DNA from: a virus
Length of the DNA: 42,343 bases
Strand: one strand, 5' to 3'
Virus record (IMG/VR): IMGVR_UViG_3300042988_000100
Location: 1-42,343 of that record
Positions within the stretch are counted from its first letter, which is position 1. Each line of letters starts with the position of its first letter. The position numbers and the translations under genes were made by a program. Under the pieces are notes generated by a model. The model had not been told where the DNA came from, ran no database searches, and saw nothing but the letters and a program-made list of their open reading frames with translations. Shown here in pieces: positions 3,947-42,343 of the stretch.

Positions 3947-3966
3947 TATCCAAATGTGCAACCATT
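3947..3966 (-). promoter_or_regulatory. Predicted phage RNA polymerase promoter before primase-helicase
   Basis: On the minus strand this reads AATGGTTGCACATTTGGATA. It differs at one base from the sites at 8439-8458 and is nearly the same as those at 5789-5809, 15110-15129 and 37855-37874. It overlaps the stop of the amidase gene and lies 18 bases before the primase-helicase start. Confidence 0.75.
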
Positions 3967-5825: not shown

Positions 5826-8339
5826 TTAGGCGAAGCAATATCGGCTGTTGACCACCTCGGACAGGTCCAGGGTGCCTCGTGCCGGTAAGGGTTGGAGCTT
5901 CTCTCGGTTCTTCTCAGAGAGCTGCTCAATGATCTCATCCCTGAAGGACTCAATCACCTCGACCTCACCGTACATCTCGGTGAAGCCCTCACGCACCGTG
6001 TGGTAGAGCTGCTCGACATCCCCTGCCGTGGTCCCGAACGAGTCATGGATCATGGCGAAGTTGTCGATGCCTGCCTGCTTGGCACGGACTACCGTCAGCA
6101 TCATGTGAGCTGCATCGCAGGAGTGGACGAAGTTGGGAGCGATCCCAGAGGACTGCTTGCGGCGGTCCAGATTGTCCTTCTCCTGGTACATCGTGAGGTA
6201 CACCAGCTTGCCGTTGATGGCAGTCTTGACCTTGCGCTTCTCCATGTCGGCATAGGCCTGCATCACGGGGAAACCCACAGGGGTTGTCCATCGCACTGGG
6301 AGTTCCTCAGAGGCAGCCAGAGAGGCAGCCCCTTGGAGCCAGCGCATGGCCTCACCAGCCTTGACCAGGACCTTGTTGACCGAAGTCCAGATCGCCTTGG
6401 CCATGTACTGGGCACCCTGGTAGCCGTCACCCTGGAAGGGGAAGGGTTTACCGGACTGCTTGGCTGGACGGATGATGTCCTCCATGAGCTGCTCCTTGAA
6501 GCCGTACTCCTTGGAGCCGTAGGCCAGCGTCATGACGGATCGCTTGGTCACCTTACGGGTGATCCCGAAGTCCAGCCACTGCTGTGCCAGGGCTTTGGTC
6601 CCGTGCTTCACATAGGCCACACCTTCCTCGGTGTGCTTCAGCTCGTCATCGGTACCGTGGACCAGGTCGTGGTTCACCTGTTCCAAAACCTTGTTGGCAA
6701 CCAGTTGATAGACATCCGCAGGTAGCTCCTTGGGCACAAGGTTGACAGCAGAGCCTCCGACTTCGTCACGTAGCATCGCGGAAAAGTGCTGGATGCCAGA
6801 GCATGAACCGTCCATAGCCACGGGCAGTTTTGATACGAACGACTCGCCATGCTCAGTGAAACCTGCCCACTCGAAGCAGAAGGCAAGGAACTGCCACGGT
6901 TTATCGATCTCGACCCCTCCAATCGTTCCACACCATCCTCGAAATCCGTAAGGATCTCGCGCAATTGCAATGATTTCATCTTCATTATCCTGTACCCAAT
7001 TGACACGGTCTTCAAAGCTGGCCTTGTCGTACCCAGCAACGTTGGCTCCGTGGATAGCCAACCATTTCCAACCCTCGCTGCCCAATGGCTTACCGTTTGC
7101 GAAACGCAACAGAGCCTTCTGAAAGTCAGACCCCTGGGGATTCAAGTGGGGGACAGCGTAGATGCGGCCACGGAAATCGAGCTGGTAGGGGAAGAAGATC
7201 TTGCGGAACTTCTCGTACCTACGGGCGATCCCCAAGGCCATGTTGAACCCAATGCGTTGACCCAAGATCGAGAGGTTCTGGACGTGGACCTTAGCGGCCT
7301 CGATCCGGTACTCTTTCTTGGCTTCCTCATTGGTGTCGATGTCGTGCGGCTTGACCGGCAAGGGCAGGCCATCACGAGACGGCAGACCAGCGATCTCCGA
7401 ACCTGACTCCCAGAGCTGCTCCATCACCTCGAAGACCTGGCTGTTGATCTGCCAGGCGGTACGCTGCAGGGCGTTCACTGCCTCGTACACGATGGGCATG
7501 TCGGTGTGCTTCAGCTCGTCCAGGTAGGCCTTGTTCTTCGACTTCACCAAGCGGATCGGCTTGATGTTGGAGGAGATGTAGCCACCGTTGAACGGGGTGG
7601 TCCAATCCTTGGGCTGCACCACCATGGGTTCGTAGACAGGACGAAGGAACTGGGTCACCTCGTTCTTCTTCTCGATCCACTCAAGGGTCTCAGGCAGGGC
7701 CTTCACGTACTTGATGGACTGGTCCTTATCGACCTTCTGGTGGGTCAGCTCGACCAACCCGACAGCCTGGATCGCAATGTCCAGCATCTTGATGCCAACG
7801 TGGAGGCGGTCAGTGCGAACCCAGCGCTTCCAGCCATCACCCGTGCGGTCAGCCTGGCGGACTGCGTAGATGTGGCGGTAGTGGCCTGAGGTGCGCTTCT
7901 TCGCCCCGATCAGGATCTTCTCGTACTGCTTGCGCTCCAGCTCACGGATGCCAGCGAACCGCAGCTCGTCCTCGATGGCCGTGCCGATAGCGACACCCAC
8001 GAACTGCAGGGTGCGGAGGCTGGAGATACCCGACAGGATCGCCTTGAGGGTGAGGAAGGCCAGCATCGTGGATGGTACATCCTTGACCTTGGGATAGGTC
8101 GTAGAGAAGCGCCCAGCCCGTCCGGCTGCCATTCCCTCTTTCCACTCATCGATGGCCTTGGCGAGCGTCTCCAGGCGGTGAGCCAGGATGGTGGTGCCGT
8201 ATGCGGTGCTCTCTTCGCGGCCTGCATGGATGGCTTTGGAGACATCACGGATGTACCGGTCTGCTCCACGCTGGGTCATACCCTCTTCGAGCTGAATCTG
8301 AATGCTCATGAGGTCATCGTTAGGGTTCATGTCGATCAT
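5826..8339 (-). CDS. Single-subunit T7-type DNA-directed RNA polymerase
   Basis: Phage RNA polymerase of 837 residues (T7 gp1 is 883). Visible motifs are PYQLDFRGRIYAVPHLNPQG near 384-403, motif A VAMDGSCSGIQHFSA (D510), motif B RKVTKRSVMTLAYGSKEYGF (K599, Y607), NFVHSCDAAH (H739) and motif C IHDSFGTTAGD (D766). The C-terminus ends in CFA, like the FAFA end of T7. The specificity-loop region (about 688-735) differs from T7, which fits the unrelated promoter core found here. The ATG at 8339 has AGGAAC upstream; a second ATG three codons later is possible. Integrase and attP lie just upstream, as in cyanophage P-SSP7 and several pelagiphages. Confidence 0.98.
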   Translation of the reverse strand: MIDMNPNDDLMSIQIQLEEGMTQRGADRYIRDVSKAIHAGREESTAYGTTILAHRLETLAKAIDEWKEGMAAGRAGRFSTTYPKVKDVPSTMLAFLTLKAILSGISSLRTLQFVGVAIGTAIEDELRFAGIRELERKQYEKILIGAKKRTSGHYRHIYAVRQADRTGDGWKRWVRTDRLHVGIKMLDIAIQAVGLVELTHQKVDKDQSIKYVKALPETLEWIEKKNEVTQFLRPVYEPMVVQPKDWTTPFNGGYISSNIKPIRLVKSKNKAYLDELKHTDMPIVYEAVNALQRTAWQINSQVFEVMEQLWESGSEIAGLPSRDGLPLPVKPHDIDTNEEAKKEYRIEAAKVHVQNLSILGQRIGFNMALGIARRYEKFRKIFFPYQLDFRGRIYAVPHLNPQGSDFQKALLRFANGKPLGSEGWKWLAIHGANVAGYDKASFEDRVNWVQDNEDEIIAIARDPYGFRGWCGTIGGVEIDKPWQFLAFCFEWAGFTEHGESFVSKLPVAMDGSCSGIQHFSAMLRDEVGGSAVNLVPKELPADVYQLVANKVLEQVNHDLVHGTDDELKHTEEGVAYVKHGTKALAQQWLDFGITRKVTKRSVMTLAYGSKEYGFKEQLMEDIIRPAKQSGKPFPFQGDGYQGAQYMAKAIWTSVNKVLVKAGEAMRWLQGAASLAASEELPVRWTTPVGFPVMQAYADMEKRKVKTAINGKLVYLTMYQEKDNLDRRKQSSGIAPNFVHSCDAAHMMLTVVRAKQAGIDNFAMIHDSFGTTAGDVEQLYHTVREGFTEMYGEVEVIESFRDEIIEQLSEKNREKLQPLPARGTLDLSEVVNSRYCFA

Positions 8340-8438: not shown

Positions 8439-8458
8439 TATCCAATTGTGCAACCATT
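8439..8458 (-). promoter_or_regulatory. Predicted phage RNA polymerase promoter upstream of its own gene
   Basis: Minus-strand AATGGTTGCACAATTGGATA, the best representative of the six-site family. It lies about 100 bases before the RNA polymerase start, so the enzyme would amplify its own transcription, or at least read into it. Confidence 0.8.
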
Positions 8459-8481: not shown

Positions 8482-8533
8482 GGTTGTCTATTGGCAAGTG
8501 GTTGTCACCGTTTGTGACACATTAGTTGTCACA
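8482..8533. repeat. Arm-type integrase-binding repeats, polymerase side of attP
   Basis: The decamers GGTTGTCACC (8500-8509) and AGTTGTCACA (8524-8533) are direct repeats. A truncated copy GGTTGTCT begins at 8482 and an inverted TGTGACA starts at 8514. The same repeat returns on the other side of the tRNA-like core. Short repeated arm sites around a core are typical of tyrosine integrases. Confidence 0.6.
8488..8500. promoter_or_regulatory. Operator-like CACTTGGCAAGTG half-match
   Basis: CTATTGGCAAGTG matches 10 of 13 positions of the perfect palindrome at 10244-10256. It lies between attP and the promoter of the RNA polymerase gene, so a protein bound here could limit entry into lytic transcription. 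It overlaps the arm-repeat cluster. Confidence 0.4.
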
Positions 8534-8600
8534 CGAAGAGTCTAAAGGAAACCTTTTCCCTTAGGTAACACTCTCCATGTGGTAACTGTTCCGTTGCAAC

Positions 8601-8632
8601 GAAAAGAACCCCCTGATTTCTCAGGAGGTTCT
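8601..8632 (-). terminator. Rho-independent terminator downstream of integrase and attP
   Basis: On the minus strand GAACCTCCTGA pairs with TCAGGGGGTTC around a GAAA loop, with one bulge, followed by TTTTC. It would end transcripts coming from the integrase and separate them from the RNA polymerase transcript. Confidence 0.75.
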
Positions 8633-8656
8633 CAAGTGAACTGAGCTGTTCAAAGA

Positions 8657-8711
8657 TGGTGCGGTCGAGAGGACTCGAACCTCCACGGATTTCTCCACTA
8701 GCACCTCAAGC
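8657..8711 (-). other. attP core matching the 3' half of a tRNA-Leu(GAG)
   Basis: Read on the minus strand this is the anticodon loop to CCA end of a leucine tRNA. The loop is TTGAGGT (anticodon GAG), followed by the 3' anticodon stem, the long variable arm TGGAGAAATCCGT, the T arm with TTCGAGT, and the acceptor strand CGACCGC-ACCA. No matching 5' acceptor (GCGGTCG), D arm or complete anticodon stem lies upstream, so it is not a whole tRNA gene. A partial tRNA next to an integrase gene is the classic attP form: on integration it rebuilds the host tRNA. The length of exact identity with the host cannot be set from this sequence. Confidence 0.88.
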
Positions 8712-8740
8712 TGAGGGGTACAAGAGAAATCAATGACTTA

Positions 8741-8798
8741 GGTTGTCACACTATCCCGAAAATCAGCCTCAGTTGTCACAGCTCAATGGCCTGTGACA
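8741..8798. repeat. Arm-type integrase-binding repeats, integrase side of attP
   Basis: GGTTGTCACA (8741-8750) and AGTTGTCACA (8771-8780) are direct repeats 30 bases apart; CTGTGACA (8791-8798) is an inverted copy. They mirror the cluster at 8482-8533 on the far side of the tRNA-like core. Confidence 0.6.
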
Positions 8799-8806
8799 GG
8801 TGGTCT

Positions 8807-9844
8807 TTACCCGTTCACAACCATGAGATGCGGCTTGATGGATACTTGCTCCAGTGCCTCACGGCCTGCCTGAAGATTGCTCGGGGCAAGGTGGGCATAA
8901 CGCATGGTCGTGGTGATGGAGGAGTGACCCATCCAAGCCTGAACCACTGCGAGAGGGACACCACGCTGGACCATACGAGATGCACAGGTGTGCCTCAGCA
9001 TGTGGACGCAGAACTGGGTGTCGTCCTCCAGCCCCATGGCCGTCTTCAGCTCCCACCATTCACGCCTGAGGGTGTGGAAGGTGTAGTCGAAGGGACGGAG
9101 CTGGTTGCCCCTGCGCTGCAGGATCTCAGCCACCCGCTGGGTCACTGGGACAGCTCGTGCCTTGTCCGTCTTGGTCTGCCCAGCATGGAGGTGGAGCATC
9201 CCATTGGCGAAGTCAGACTTGTGCAGGCCCAGCAGCTCAGACCTACGGAAGCCGGTGTCAGTGGCCACCACGATGAAGTCGTAGAGCTGGTGGAGATCGA
9301 GCTGACGGCACATGGCCAGCGCCCTGCTCTCCTCAGCCTCGTCCATCCAGCGGATGCGGTGGCTACCAGGCTTCCTGCGGGGCAGCTTGGGCATGGCCTT
9401 GATCCAGTCCTTCTCCATCGCTGTGGTCAGCATCTTGGAGAGGTGAGAGATCTTGTGGTTGACCGTCTGCCCCTTGTTGCCTTCCTCTTCCCAGGCCTCG
9501 ACGGCATCCAGTGCCATGTCGAAGGTGACCTCCGAGACCGGAGTGTCCTCAGGGATCTGCTCGAAGACCGCCTTGCAGAAAATCTTGTGGGTATCCTGGC
9601 CTTTGTCCTCTTTCCAATAGAGCCTCCAGGTGAGGTCATGGGCTTCTTTGAGGGTGTGGATACCAGCAGGACGTTTTGCAGGCCCTGTAGCTGGTTTTAG
9701 AGGGCTTCCTGTGGCTTTCTGACGGGTCAGTGCCTCAAGTTCAGCGACCTCAGCTTCGTTCTTGGTCTTGAAGCTCTCACGGAATCGATGGGCACCACTG
9801 CCCACAGAGACCATGTAAGCTCCACCACGTTCGTAGATGGGCAT
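8807..9844 (-). CDS. Tyrosine-type integrase
   Basis: Site-specific recombinase of 345 residues. The catalytic set is complete: R200 in ATDTGFRRSELLGL, K225 in GQTKTDKARAVPVT, H281 and R284 in HMLRHTCAS, H307 in WMGHSSITTT, and the nucleophile Y316 in MRYAHL. An N-terminal strand-rich segment (YERGGAYMVSVGSGAHRFRESF) looks like the Arm-binding domain, and residues 63-150 form the SAM-like core-binding domain. The stop is 96 bases from the tRNA-like attP core, and the start is two bases below the MarR-like gene's stop, so both are probably co-transcribed. All active-site residues are intact, so it should be functional. Confidence 0.97.
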   Translation of the reverse strand: MPIYERGGAYMVSVGSGAHRFRESFKTKNEAEVAELEALTRQKATGSPLKPATGPAKRPAGIHTLKEAHDLTWRLYWKEDKGQDTHKIFCKAVFEQIPEDTPVSEVTFDMALDAVEAWEEEGNKGQTVNHKISHLSKMLTTAMEKDWIKAMPKLPRRKPGSHRIRWMDEAEESRALAMCRQLDLHQLYDFIVVATDTGFRRSELLGLHKSDFANGMLHLHAGQTKTDKARAVPVTQRVAEILQRRGNQLRPFDYTFHTLRREWWELKTAMGLEDDTQFCVHMLRHTCASRMVQRGVPLAVVQAWMGHSSITTTMRYAHLAPSNLQAGREALEQVSIKPHLMVVNG

Positions 9845-9845
9845 A

Positions 9846-10166
9846 TCAGTTGCTCCCCAAAATGTTATTCACAGTGATCTGACCCTTCTTGGTGAGACGA
9901 ATTATCTTTTTTCGTCTCTCCATCGGGTCCTCGAATGACTCGATGAGTTTCAGTCCTTCCTCCTTTTTCCTGTTGATCTTCCCAAGAGCACCAATATGGC
10001 GACTAGCAGTGGCCAGCCCTATGCCTGCTCTTTTAGCGATCTCAGAGAGCGACATGCCCTCTGCTTCTTCAGCGACTACGAACAGGCACTTGGCCTGACC
10101 TAGCGGCATCTCTGGGTCGATTGCTGAGATACCTGTAAGAAAGCGAATCGCGTCTGTGGGTGTCAT
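9846..10166 (-). CDS. MarR-like winged-helix transcription regulator
   Basis: 106-residue protein with a MarR-type winged helix: helices around LGQAKCLFVVAEEAEGMSLSEIAKRAGIGLATASRHIGALGKI, of which GLATASRHIGALG is the recognition helix, then a wing (MERRKKIIRLTKKGQITVNNIL). Such proteins bind palindromic operators as dimers. It sits directly upstream of the integrase and is divergent from a plus-strand gene; a perfect palindrome lies 78 bases above its start. An AGGAG lies 12 bases before the ATG. I infer a role in controlling integration or lysogeny, but a regulator of early transcription is equally possible. Confidence 0.85.
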   Translation of the reverse strand: MTPTDAIRFLTGISAIDPEMPLGQAKCLFVVAEEAEGMSLSEIAKRAGIGLATASRHIGALGKINRKKEEGLKLIESFEDPMERRKKIIRLTKKGQITVNNILGSN

Positions 10167-13786: not shown

Positions 13787-13823
13787 GGGGATGTAGTCCT
13801 ATGAAAGAGTGATTGTGAAAGGG

Positions 13824-13853
13824 ATTATATCGGCAATGGTTGTCACTTGGCAA
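13824..13853 (-). promoter_or_regulatory. Sigma70-like host promoter for the GP88 gene
   Basis: Minus strand: -35 TTGCCA, 18-base spacer, -10 TATAAT. The operator-like motif at 13844-13856 covers the -35 box, and an arm-like GGTTGTCACT lies in the spacer. Both well-formed host promoters in the window have a TATAAT box and an 18-base spacer. Confidence 0.7.
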
Positions 13854-13856
13854 GCG
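13844..13856. promoter_or_regulatory. Operator-like CACTTGGCAAGCG over the early promoter
   Basis: Matches 12 of 13 positions of the palindrome at 10244-10256 and overlaps the -35 hexamer of the GP88 promoter. Binding here would block host transcription of the early region. Confidence 0.5.
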
Positions 13857-13857
13857 T

Positions 13858-13935
13858 TCAGGCAGTAAGCCAGACCAGGATCACAGCGACAAAGCCCAGG
13901 GAATACAAAACGAAGTTAAAAAAGCGGTTTGGCAT
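13858..13935 (-). CDS. 25-residue single-span membrane peptide
   Basis: Reads MPNRFFNFVLYSLGFVAVIL and ends VWLTA: almost all of it is one membrane helix with a short basic start. GGAG lies at the right distance before the ATG at 13935. Its stop overlaps the operator and -35 region of the next promoter. Tiny early membrane peptides in phages often target host envelope or defence, but that is a guess here. Confidence 0.5.
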   Translation of the reverse strand: MPNRFFNFVLYSLGFVAVILVWLTA

Positions 13936-13949
13936 GGTAGAACTCCAGT

Positions 13950-14111
13950 TTATTCGTCTTCGCCTGGTTCTTCATTTGGGCGGTATGCTAGGTCATAGTT
14001 CGCCCGTTCATCCTCTGGTACGAGTATCGGTACCCCCTTGCTATCTAGAACTTCATTCCCGTAACTATCCAGGGCATACCCGTCACGGCTCACATAGTTG
14101 AATAAACGCAT
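13950..14111 (-). CDS. First early gene: 53-residue protein
   Basis: ATG at 14111 with GGAG upstream; the frame extends to 14147 without a start signal. Sequence MRLFNYVSRDGYALDSYGNE, then strand-rich VLDSKGVPILVPED and an acidic end (NEEPGEDE). DGYALDSYGNEVLDSKG shows an internal half-repeat (YALDSYG and VLDSKG). It is the first gene after the gene-free region, in the place of T7 gene 0.3, a host-defence inhibitor; the acidity would fit a DNA-mimic idea, but there is no family match. Confidence 0.65.
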   Translation of the reverse strand: MRLFNYVSRDGYALDSYGNEVLDSKGVPILVPEDERANYDLAYRPNEEPGEDE

Positions 14112-14368
14112 TTTGAATCTCCAAAAGTTAGGTTTGCGAGGTCTCAAAGATTTTCGAGGCCTTCACATATATAGCATAATAGAATCGTGCCAGCTTTTGA
14201 AAAGTCCTTTAGAATCAACAACTTAAAAGTTCGACTTTGTACCCTAATAGGGAAAACCCTTAGAACTCTTGTAGTCAAAACGCACCGATTACAGTGCAAC
14301 TACTGGATGGGCTTACAGTAAGCTAAAGGTTCTCAAAGTTGAAAGCGCACCGATGCACGAGCACAGGC

Positions 14369-14388
14369 TGTGGATAACTTGTGGATAA
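14369..14388 (-). promoter_or_regulatory. Two perfect DnaA boxes
   Basis: Minus-strand TTATCCACA occurs twice as a direct repeat with a 2-base spacer (plus strand TGTGGATAA at 14369-14377 and 14380-14388). This is the consensus high-affinity DnaA 9-mer. GATGCAC and CATGCACC flank the pair. T7-type phages replicate with their own polymerase and primase, so host DnaA boxes are not expected. Confidence 0.8.
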
Positions 14389-14624
14389 CTCATGCACCGG
14401 CATGGATTGGACCTTGAGAGGCCCTGGTTTGCCCCCTGAACTAGCTTCCAGAGCTAGATAAAACCTAATGAAATCAACGACTTACAGCGCCCCGTGACAG
14501 ACATTGTGCCAGCCGCGGACTAAGTTAGTGCTCACTCACAGGCAACGGGACGGGCACGGGGGGAAAGCGCCACCGCCATTTCTCGAGGTAGGCTCACATA
14601 TTTTTTCAACTAACTATTTTGGAA

Positions 14625-14870
14625 CCTAGAGACCCTCTAGAGGATACCTCCGCGAGCTAGTCCGCATGAACTGAATCACTTGGTAAAGTCTTACCTGGAG
14701 ATACCCTCTACAAAGCTCTAGGAAGCCCTACAAGACCTCTAAAGGTCAAACCCTAGGCTACCCTACTAGTCTGTCCTTTAGCTTGTCCTAGAGACTATCT
14801 GTGTTGGTATTACATTATGGTACTACCACCTAGAGAGGAACCTAAGGACACCCTTAGGTCTATCTCTAAG
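14625..14870. repeat. Array of CCTAGAG-like heptamers
   Basis: Copies or close variants at 14625 (CCTAGAG), 14634 (CCTCTAGAGG), 14716 (CTCTAGG), 14736 (CCTCTAAAGG), 14752 (CCTAGG), 14775 (CCTTTAG), 14787 (CCTAGAG), 14829 (CCTAGAG), 14841 (CCTAAGG), 14852 (CCTTAGG) and 14864 (CTCTAAG). T7 carries arrays of a similar heptamer (CCTAAAG) next to its terminal repeats, so this may mark the packaging or end-processing zone. Confidence 0.6.
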
Positions 14871-15109
14871 ATTAAATCTTAAATACTATATGCTAGCCAT
14901 ATAGGCTTCTAGCTTCCCCCCCTACCCCCCATAGATGTTCTATAGAGAAGTAGAGGCAGTTAGCTAATGAGGCCTGTTATCACAACTAGCTAGTCTGAGT
15001 TAGAGACTTACTACATGCTGAGCACACATTAGGAACCAGCCTGGTCCAAAGACCAGCACCTAATTGGACCGTGTGCCCAGATATAGATGTTCCCCCAGAT
15101 AGAATGTTC

Positions 15110-15129
15110 TATCCAATTGGGCAACCCTT
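15110..15129 (-). promoter_or_regulatory. Predicted phage promoter at the genome end, after terminase
   Basis: Minus-strand AAGGGTTGCCCAATTGGATA, followed by an inverted repeat GATAGAA-CA-TTCTATC at the expected transcription start. It points away from terminase into the gene-free region, like T7 phi-OR, which has a replication role. Confidence 0.7.
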
Positions 15130-15154
15130 AGCTAAGTCGTTGATTCATATAGGA

Positions 15155-17392: not shown

Positions 17393-17610
17393 GCGAATAT
17401 AAGTTTGAGAGCTTTGTCAAAGCCAATTGACTGGCCTACGATTACGGCACAAGCACCCATGGCTAACCACTTGATTTGAGAGAGGGTCTTCTCGATACCC
17501 ACGAGACTCCTTTTGAGTGTCTCTGAGATGTCTTGGAGCTTCTTCAGCTCCTCTTGGTGGTCATCCATGCGGTACTCTAGCTTGAGAATACGCTGTTCTA
17601 AGTGGTCCAT
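17389..17610 (-). CDS. XhlA-like membrane protein, copy B
   Basis: 73 residues: a coiled-coil first part (MDHLEQRILKLEYRMDDHQE and on through KKLQDISETLKRSLVGIEKTL) then one membrane helix (WLAMGACAVIVGQSIGF). This is the layout of XhlA-type hemolysin or holin-associated proteins. ATG 17610 fits the paralogue; the frame runs further up but overlaps the preceding gene. It shares about two thirds of its residues with the protein at 18197-18412. It could act in lysis, or anchor at the membrane during infection. Confidence 0.8.
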   Translation of the reverse strand: MDHLEQRILKLEYRMDDHQEELKKLQDISETLKRSLVGIEKTLSQIKWLAMGACAVIVGQSIGFDKALKLIFA

Positions 17611-17612
17611 GG

Positions 17613-18152
17613 TTATTCGTACAGTATGTTCACCGAGCCAGCATCGAATGTGTCGGTGCCGTTTGATGATGTGATGCGGAGGCGGTCTAAAGTGCCACCA
17701 AGTGAAAGGGAGCCACCACCAGTGACGACATAGGTGGAGCCGATGTTGCCATGATGGCTTGCGACCCAGACGTTTCCACCTGTGTTCACCAGCGTCATGG
17801 TGCCCGTAAAGGCGTTGGCGTTGGTTCCACCTGTGACGCAGAGGCCGTTTGTGGCTGAGCTGATGCTGCACTGGTTCGTTGTAGCAATGTAGCCGGTGCA
17901 GGCGCTGTAGCCGGTGGTGACGAGACTACCCGCTCCAAGCTGGACCAGGGTGTTTGCGGAACCACTGAGAGACACACCAAGGTAGGTGATGGTGATCTTC
18001 TTGACCCACGAGGGGATCCCCGTGAAGTCCTTGGTGGTTCCGCTGGTTGTCGCTTGGGACGTACCAAAGGTCAGCGGCTGGACCAAGTCTTCCGGACCAA
18101 TCAGGCCTGCAGTGCTCGGCTTGAGGTTTGCAAGATTACGAGCATTGCTCAT
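17613..18152 (-). CDS. Small tail-fibre-like or decoration protein
   Basis: 179 residues, almost all beta-structure and rich in Gly, Ser and Thr. It starts MSNARNLANLKPSTAGLIGP, a common start of phage and prophage tail-fibre proteins, followed by GTSQATTSGTTKDFTGIPSWVKKITITYLGVS, a segment seen in many prophage fibre-region proteins. AAAGGA precedes the ATG. It sits between the two XhlA-like genes, downstream of the spike, so a host-binding or accessory tail role is likely. Confidence 0.7.
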   Translation of the reverse strand: MSNARNLANLKPSTAGLIGPEDLVQPLTFGTSQATTSGTTKDFTGIPSWVKKITITYLGVSLSGSANTLVQLGAGSLVTTGYSACTGYIATTNQCSISSATNGLCVTGGTNANAFTGTMTLVNTGGNVWVASHHGNIGSTYVVTGGGSLSLGGTLDRLRITSSNGTDTFDAGSVNILYE

Positions 18153-18196
18153 AAATTCCTTTCAAAAAAGACCGAGGGACGAATCCCCCAGTCCAA

Positions 18197-18412
18197 TTAC
18201 AAGAACAGCTTCAAAGCATCCTTGATGCCGAACGACTGGGCAACCACAACAGCCACAGCACCCATGGCAAGGTACTTGATCTGCGAGAGGGTCTTTTCGA
18301 TGCCTGCAAGGGAGCTGCGGAGATCGCTGGAGATGTCCTGCAACTTTTTCAGCTCCTCTGCGTGGTCGTCTACACGAAGCTCCAGTTTTATTACACGATG
18401 TTCGAGTTCCAT
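18197..18412 (-). CDS. XhlA-like membrane protein, copy A
   Basis: 71 residues from ATG 18412, with TGAGG upstream (a TTG at 18424 is possible). Same plan as copy B: coiled coil MELEHRVIKLELRVDDHAEE to IEKTLSQIK, then membrane helix YLAMGAVAVVVAQSFGI. The stretch GIEKTLSQIK and the EELKKLQDIS stretch are identical in both copies. It directly follows the spike gene. The pairing of each copy with an upstream tail gene suggests duplication of a module. Confidence 0.8.
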   Translation of the reverse strand: MELEHRVIKLELRVDDHAEELKKLQDISSDLRSSLAGIEKTLSQIKYLAMGAVAVVVAQSFGIKDALKLFL

Positions 18413-41946: not shown

Positions 41947-42294
41947 TTAAAGTTCCAAATGTGGTGGGTTTTGAATTGCCTGGAAATATTTCAGGAGACT
42001 TGGGTTGTCCATGATGACACCCATCATGCCAGAGGCCATGCGCCTAACAATGACTTCCTCATCAGCACCACCCATGGCGATACTCATGCAGTACCAGACG
42101 GCATGGAAGATCTCATGGAGGAGTGTGTCTGCCTCTTCCACTGGGTGCTGGCCATCCTTGACGATGATGATGCACTGGTGGTTGTTGCACAGACCTAGGT
42201 TCTCGGTGCCCAGCAATGAGTCGTCTTCATAGATAACTACGTAGTTGCGGCCCATGATACGGACTGCATTGGGTCGCAGCTTTTCATGTTTCAT
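41947..42294 (-). CDS. Small HExxH zinc-metalloprotease-like protein
   Basis: 115 residues. An N-terminal beta part (KLRPNAVRIMGRNYVVIYED) is followed by EEADTLLHEIFHAVWYCMSI with HEIFH and DEEVIVRRMASGMMGVIMDNPSLLKYFQAI, where the Glu pair may give the third ligand. Such small HExxH proteins occur in many phages; substrate unknown. AAGGAC precedes the ATG, which overlaps the winged-helix stop (ATGA) through the contig junction. Confidence 0.8.
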   Translation of the reverse strand: MKHEKLRPNAVRIMGRNYVVIYEDDSLLGTENLGLCNNHQCIIIVKDGQHPVEEADTLLHEIFHAVWYCMSIAMGGADEEVIVRRMASGMMGVIMDNPSLLKYFQAIQNPPHLEL

Positions 42295-42343
42295 AGAAGT
42301 CCTTCTTCACGGAGGAGGCCCAGACCCTCTTCCGTTATTCGCC
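42264..42343. repeat. 80-bp contig-end redundancy, copy 2
   Basis: Second copy of the first 80 bases. It contains the true start of the HExxH gene (to 42294) and the last residues of the winged-helix gene, whose body lies at 28-240. Joining the copies gives a circular map without gaps. Confidence 0.95.

Follow-up and report, generated by a model that had tools for sequence, protein, structure and literature searches.

The window, by which we mean the whole stretch of 42,343 nucleotides that was analysed, is a complete, circularly assembled genome of a T7-like podovirus bearing a site-specific integration module. Positions 42264-42343 are an exact 80-bp repeat of positions 1-80, which makes the contig a closed circle of 42,263 bp. 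Genes for T7-like virion and packaging proteins are present (major head, tail, internal virion and terminase proteins; PHROG), and the remaining genes that were tested are those of a T7-like phage (Pfam, PHROG). The features discussed below are located as follows.

5826-8339, minus strand: T7-type single-subunit RNA polymerase, 837 aa (PF00940, E=8.5e-117; PF14700)
8441-8457, minus strand: ATGGTTGCACAATTGGA, probable promoter of the phage polymerase upstream of the polymerase gene (repeated motif)
8501-8533, no strand assigned: putative P' arm with GTGACAAC at 8501-8508 (minus) and TGTGACA at 8513-8519 (plus) and 8527-8533 (minus) (repeated motif)
8604-8633, minus strand: hairpin of 13 bp with a U-rich tail directly downstream of the core, probable terminator (fold z -4.4)
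8657-8712, minus strand: proposed attP core, the 56-nt 3' part of a tRNA-Leu(GAG) from the anticodon stem-loop to CCA (exact match to a bacterial tRNA)
8742-8798, no strand assigned: putative P arm between integrase and core with TGTGACA at 8744-8750 (minus), 8774-8780 (minus) and 8792-8798 (plus) (repeated motif)
8807-9844, minus strand: tyrosine integrase, 345 aa (PF00589, E=1.6e-25; PHROG integrase)
9846-10166, minus strand: small MarR-like helix-turn-helix regulator adjoining the integrase gene (PHROG 9665, transcriptional regulator; MarR structures by profile)
13824-13853, minus strand: best sigma-70-like promoter of the early region, TTGCCA-18-TATAAT (consensus scan only), a candidate source of early transcription through the integrase gene

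Between the terminase and the early genes lie 1.4 kb without a large open reading frame on the coding strand (13787-15154), probably the site where the ends of the linear genome were joined. A duplicated small gene is suggested at 17402-18403, close to the tail fibre region, by two pairs of related segments (98 and 74 nt) whose members are 805 nt apart and 70-73% identical.

The integrase gene directly precedes the polymerase gene. When 12 homologues were aligned, a complete catalytic set emerged, consisting of R200, K225, H281, R284, H307 and Y316, with H281 nearly invariant and the other residues invariant. Together with the match to PF00589 this confirms the presence of all six catalytic residues, as reported in an earlier sequence-only reading of this DNA. 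A MarR-like regulator beside the integrase is a frequent, not universal, feature of temperate T7-like phages (Autographiviridae with integrase), and it is present here as well; in the alignment of the MarR-like protein of the window the row of gp10 from Pseudomonas phage LUZ100 is 32% identical.

Read on the minus strand, the core is AGCTTGAGGTGCTAGTGGAGAAATCCGTGGAGGTTCGAGTCCTCTCGACCGCACCA; it begins with AGCTTGAGG and ends with CGCACCA, and its 5' end lies 94 nt past the stop codon of the integrase gene on the same strand. The sequence-only reading had described this segment as the 3' part of a tRNA-Leu lacking the 5' half, which stands, with the length corrected from 55 to 56 nt and the spacing from 96 to 94 nt. 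ARAGORN detected no complete tRNA in the window, Rfam gave no match at the gathering threshold, and the 80 identical bases at the two contig ends, which close the circle, leave no place for a tRNA beyond the window. The possibility that the core is a piece of a complete phage tRNA gene was thereby ruled out. When the 5' half of the host gene was joined to the phage core and the phage sequence downstream of it, the product was recognised as a complete tRNA-Leu(GAG), in contrast to the phage sequence by itself.

An exact 54-nt pattern of the core was scanned against 84,980 species genomes and was found at one place, within a complete tRNA-Leu(GAG) gene on contig CANJNI010000008.1 of a Beijerinckiaceae MAG. 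An exact match of this length within a tRNA with the right anticodon, in one of 84,980 genomes, is not chance. All 56 nt of the core correspond to positions 30-85 of this tRNA, and the identity ends at both sides. The core is thus matched over its full length by a bacterial tRNA-Leu(GAG) and lies outside any complete phage tRNA, and the 56-nt identity supports both its assignment as attP and tRNA-Leu(GAG) as the target. Genes encoding LplA/B-type ligase and acylphosphatase domains are located in the vicinity of the bacterial tRNA gene. The MAG lacks a match to the phage polymerase, so that its site is probably empty. The next 14 best matches among 298 genomes of the family show 4-5 mismatches over the 56 core positions. 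A loosened pattern in which the variable arm was freed matched 4 of the 298 family genomes, whereas a class-wide draw of 327 genomes yielded only the same MAG. Judging from these matches, the Beijerinckiaceae are fairly likely to be the host family, and the true host species may be unsampled. The earlier claim that this tRNA gene identifies the host accordingly holds in part: the exact match and the loosened pattern point to the family, but the species is not fixed.

The genome has six copies of TGTGACA, five of which are located within 279 bp around the core (8513-8798) and on both sides of it, an arrangement that occurred in 0 of 200,000 random placements. The motif is kept in close relatives. 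More distant phages carry a different repeated motif at the corresponding place, for example GGGACAC in L076. The simplest reading is that the TGTGACA repeats are likely arm-type sites of the integrase. Exact copies upstream of the MarR-like gene are absent from the window and from most of the relatives examined, and the motif was therefore rejected as an autoregulatory operator of this gene.

The core is followed downstream by the hairpin, the P' arm, ATGGTTGCACAATTGGA and the polymerase gene, in this order. The hairpin at 8604-8633 is conserved in eight phages, and two of its pairs are changed on both sides. A simple promoter and terminator scan did not list it, and we therefore used the fold and the covariation instead, which indicate a probable terminator. 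The motif RTGGTTGCMCAATTGGA recurs on the coding strand, with at least five good copies (window positions 3949, 5792, 8441, 15112 and 37857, minus strand), and ATGGTTGCACAATTGGA is also found before the polymerase gene in several relatives. Its recurrence suggests that this motif is probably the own promoter of the phage polymerase.

In relatives whose integrases are 57-94% identical the core is located on the same strand, its CCA end lying 132-157 nt beyond the integrase gene. An identical core is present in L003 and L006 (integrase 94% and 78% identical), and further tRNA-Leu(GAG) cores, most of them with other variable arms, were found in L004, L005, L008, L067-L071 and L073. Other phages carry cores of tRNA-Leu(UAG) (L007, L074, L076), of the UAA type (L077), of the CAA type (L079) or a tRNA-Cys-like core (L078); the isoacceptors of these half-tRNAs were assigned by visual inspection of the anticodon loop. 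Ten GAG cores were aligned, and all 70 stem cells scored in the variable arm and the T arm are paired, with three pairs changed on both sides, although the sequences are few and the rows related. This variation with pairing kept fits cores that are required to rebuild a functional tRNA in different hosts. For the variant cores of L004, L005 and L068-L071 a search for hosts in the class-wide draw matched only the same MAG, and three family genomes (G073, G125 and G200) possess a variable arm that is similar, not identical, to the variant cores. Taken together, the relatives show that the tRNA-Leu isoacceptor used as target, and the host, can change without loss of the tRNA fold.

Some relatives show unusual layouts. 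L068 (4457-5797) contains two 3' halves of tRNA-Leu(GAG) with differing variable arms, each with its own TGTGACA sites. These halves enclose 1.3 kb with two open reading frames without Pfam match, and the segment looks like cargo trapped between two attP sites. In total L068 has 11 copies of TGTGACA, about twice the usual number. In L074, with an integrase of 49% identity, the integrase gene and a 3' half of tRNA-Leu(UAG) are followed by tRNA-His and toxin-antitoxin-like genes, which looks like a junction between prophage and bacterium. The order in L076 (4242-5411) is integrase, 3' half of tRNA-Leu(UAG), tRNA-His, complete tRNA-Leu(UAG), a hairpin-like sequence and polymerase; this possibly reflects a prophage at each of two neighbouring tRNA-Leu genes, the capture of host DNA or an assembly effect.

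A search for an integrated copy of the window phage or its close clade at tRNA-Leu(GAG) was negative in samples of 298 family, 398 order and 337 class genomes. Of the two things that a search of bacterial genomes was expected to reveal, the core within tRNA-Leu(GAG) was thus found, but a prophage at this place was absent from these genomes. The lysogeny at tRNA-Leu(GAG) claimed by the sequence-only reading stays a prediction: no prophage of this phage was found in these samples, and integrating T7-like cyanophages lack stable lysogens (PMC8776855). More distant T7-like prophages were identified in G012, G991 and G667, with polymerases 36-42% identical to that of the window. Here the polymerase gene is located at one end and the integrase gene at the other, about 37-40 kb apart, and the prophages interrupt tRNA-Leu (UAA), (CAA) and (UAG), respectively, at the anticodon loop. 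The left end consists of the 5' half of the tRNA-Leu followed by the polymerase gene, the right end of the integrase gene followed by the 3' half, and joining the host flanks at the core yields complete tRNAs. Each of these prophages (L048, L061, L169-L172) has a short core and a complete replacement tRNA-Leu next to the integrase gene, in contrast to the long 3' half of the window phage. The disrupt-and-replace design of these prophages and of LUZ100-like phages is already described (PMC8631192, PMC6811365, PMC10865867), and we rejected it as a new finding. An attP between integrase and polymerase that is split on integration is supported by these distant examples, not for the window phage itself. 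The layout in G393 uses tRNA-Tyr, G437 has another layout, and the junctions in G191 and G561 gave no clear reading. G301 (L050, 10217-10498) has a complete tRNA-Glu(CUC) and, about 200 nt downstream and on the same strand, the start of a divergent T7-like polymerase gene, an arrangement that a prophage end would show.

From these data we propose the following model. The tyrosine integrase would bind the TGTGACA arm sites flanking the core, and the anticodon stem-loop of attP would recombine with that of a host tRNA-Leu(GAG), probably in the Beijerinckiaceae. Since the phage would supply the 3' 56 nt, the host tRNA would be restored at the junction. The predicted attL consists of the host 5' half, the core and TCTTTGAACAGCTCAG, and the predicted attR of CTTGTACCCCTC, the core and the host downstream sequence. 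Because attP lies between integrase and polymerase, a prophage would carry the integrase and the early genes at one end and the polymerase gene at the other, where it would directly follow the restored tRNA gene, with the conserved terminator in between. In the free genome the host polymerase could reach the T7-type polymerase gene by read-through from the early and integrase operon; integration would separate this gene from the upstream early promoter and could thereby silence it, and the MarR-like protein may act as a second control. For the window phage we infer integration, stable lysogeny, the role of the arm sites and the silencing of the polymerase from sequence. An integration module of the kind described is with high probability the best explanation overall. 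The further idea that integration itself is the switch between lysis and lysogeny, with the polymerase silent until excision, is unlikely to hold and is offered tentatively. In mycobacteriophages with an integration-dependent switch, integration alters the repressor gene, and the T7-like switch proposed here would differ from this. A non-exhaustive literature search on integration-dependent immunity yielded mycobacteriophages and no T7-like case.

Several other explanations have to be weighed against this model. One is that the tRNA part does not work as an attP but was left behind as a relic by an earlier integration or by imprecise excision, or serves another purpose as a decoy or tRNA fragment; this is very improbable. 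It is true that the core matches one MAG only and that the LUZ100 authors view the tRNA-Leu of their phage as an integration remnant (PMC10134795), but the core agrees with a bacterial gene at each of its 56 nt, the variable arm differs between phages with the pairing kept, and the distance and orientation of the core relative to the integrase gene are conserved together with the arm sites. A relic would decay, and the conservation of core, pairing, spacing and arm sites thus argues against it. The TGTGACA repeats could, in turn, be operators through which the MarR-like regulator controls the polymerase promoter, as MarR control of the polymerase has been proposed for LUZ100 and related phages (PMC10134795) and the sites occur on both sides of the core, three of them between terminator and polymerase promoter. 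We regard this as unlikely, because the integrase-side copies have no polymerase promoter to control, the regulator gene itself has no upstream sites in the window or in most relatives examined, and the phage with two cores has about twice as many copies.

If integration is real, the host might nevertheless be another alphaproteobacterium that shares the 3' half of tRNA-Leu(GAG) by chance, and the match would then not identify the host family. The exact match in only one of 84,980 species genomes, the many unsampled freshwater and soil lineages and a core that is, outside the variable arm, common to four family genomes are compatible with this; the loosened pattern, with only the same MAG among the class-wide 327 genomes against 4 of 298 in the family, makes it rather doubtful. 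It is also conceivable that the module, like that of T7-like cyanophages, lets the phage integrate only transiently in the course of a lytic infection and that no stable prophage state exists. Such a function would agree with phage S-TIP37, which integrates in an int- and attP-dependent manner without lysogens (PMC8776855), with LUZ100, for which stable lysogens are lacking (PMC10134795), and with the absence of a clade prophage at tRNA-Leu(GAG) from about 1,000 sampled genomes. However, the cyanophage authors suggest missing regulatory genes as the cause (PMC8776855), and the window phage has a MarR-like gene by its integrase gene. Furthermore, inducible T7-like lysogens at tRNA-Leu are published for Rhizobium (PMC8631192), resident T7-like prophages exist in related bacteria, and the closer relative L074 resembles a bacterial junction; we consider purely transient integration improbable. 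With the integration module as the preferred reading, an uncultured phage clade gains a probable host family and an exact candidate attB. An attP between the integrase and a self-amplifying polymerase would also offer a simple possible route to temperate T7-like phages, a question standing since P-SSP7.

The window phage is of an already known kind, a T7-like phage with an integrase and a tRNA-Leu site, and is a new member that would restore the tRNA by a long 3' core on the coding strand. Such phages are described for cyanophages, pelagiphages, freshwater SAR11, rhizobia and Pseudomonas (PMC8776855, PMC6811365, PMC8631192, PMC10134795). Among the named phages of the phage collection, Bordetella phage vB_BbrP_BB8 (MK984681, Gyeongsanvirus, Autographiviridae) has the closest integrase (51%; polymerase 66%). 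It likewise has the integrase directly upstream of the polymerase, but no tRNA part was recognised between them. LUZ100 (PMC10134795) shares the order MarR-like gene, integrase, terminator, phage promoter and polymerase; its authors propose that read-through of the terminator by the host polymerase sets the polymerase loop going. However, its integrase is only 37% identical, a complete tRNA-Leu(UAA) is located upstream of the integrase gene on the other strand, and downstream of the integrase gene there is only a short sequence resembling an anticodon loop. This sequence, GACTTAAAA (L029, 3900-3960), as in the anticodon loop of tRNA-Leu(UAA), lies just downstream of the integrase gene and before terminator T4. 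It is likely the attP core of LUZ100, and the tRNA-Leu(UAA) likely a replacement rather than a relic. In the freshwater T7-like Limnohabitans phage YIMV22061 (PQ492660) a MarR-like gene, integrase, tRNA-Leu and polymerase follow in order, but the tRNA-Leu(UAA) is complete and on the opposite strand, and the integrase is 38% identical.

An integrase beside a T7-type polymerase, for which the sequence-only reading had cited P-SSP7 and pelagiphages, is indeed documented there. In the cyanophages P-SSP7 and S-TIP37 the integrase is followed by an attP identical to part of the host tRNA-Leu, and integration was shown (PMC8776855); their cores of 39-44 bp, however, are described as matching the first half of tRNA-Leu, and no stable lysogeny was obtained. 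The HTVC019P-group pelagiphages and uv-Fonsiphage-EPL (PMC6811365) are T7-like and integrate into tRNA-Leu, with one prophage in a freshwater SAR11 genome, but their target is tRNA-Leu(TAG) and they carry their own replacement tRNA-Leu. The Rhizobium phages vTRX32-1 and RHEph01 (PMC8631192) are temperate and T7-like as well, with integration at the tRNA-Leu anticodon loop and inducible lysogens; they combine a 12-bp core with a complete replacement tRNA-Leu, whereas the window phage has a 56-nt core restoring the gene and carries no tRNA. In tRNA-dependent lysogeny (PMC10865867) a short common core (about 10 bp) that does not rebuild the tRNA is combined with a phage-encoded complete tRNA of the same isotype. 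The window phage lies outside this class on both counts, as its 56-nt core rebuilds a complete tRNA-Leu(GAG) and its complete circle encodes no tRNA.
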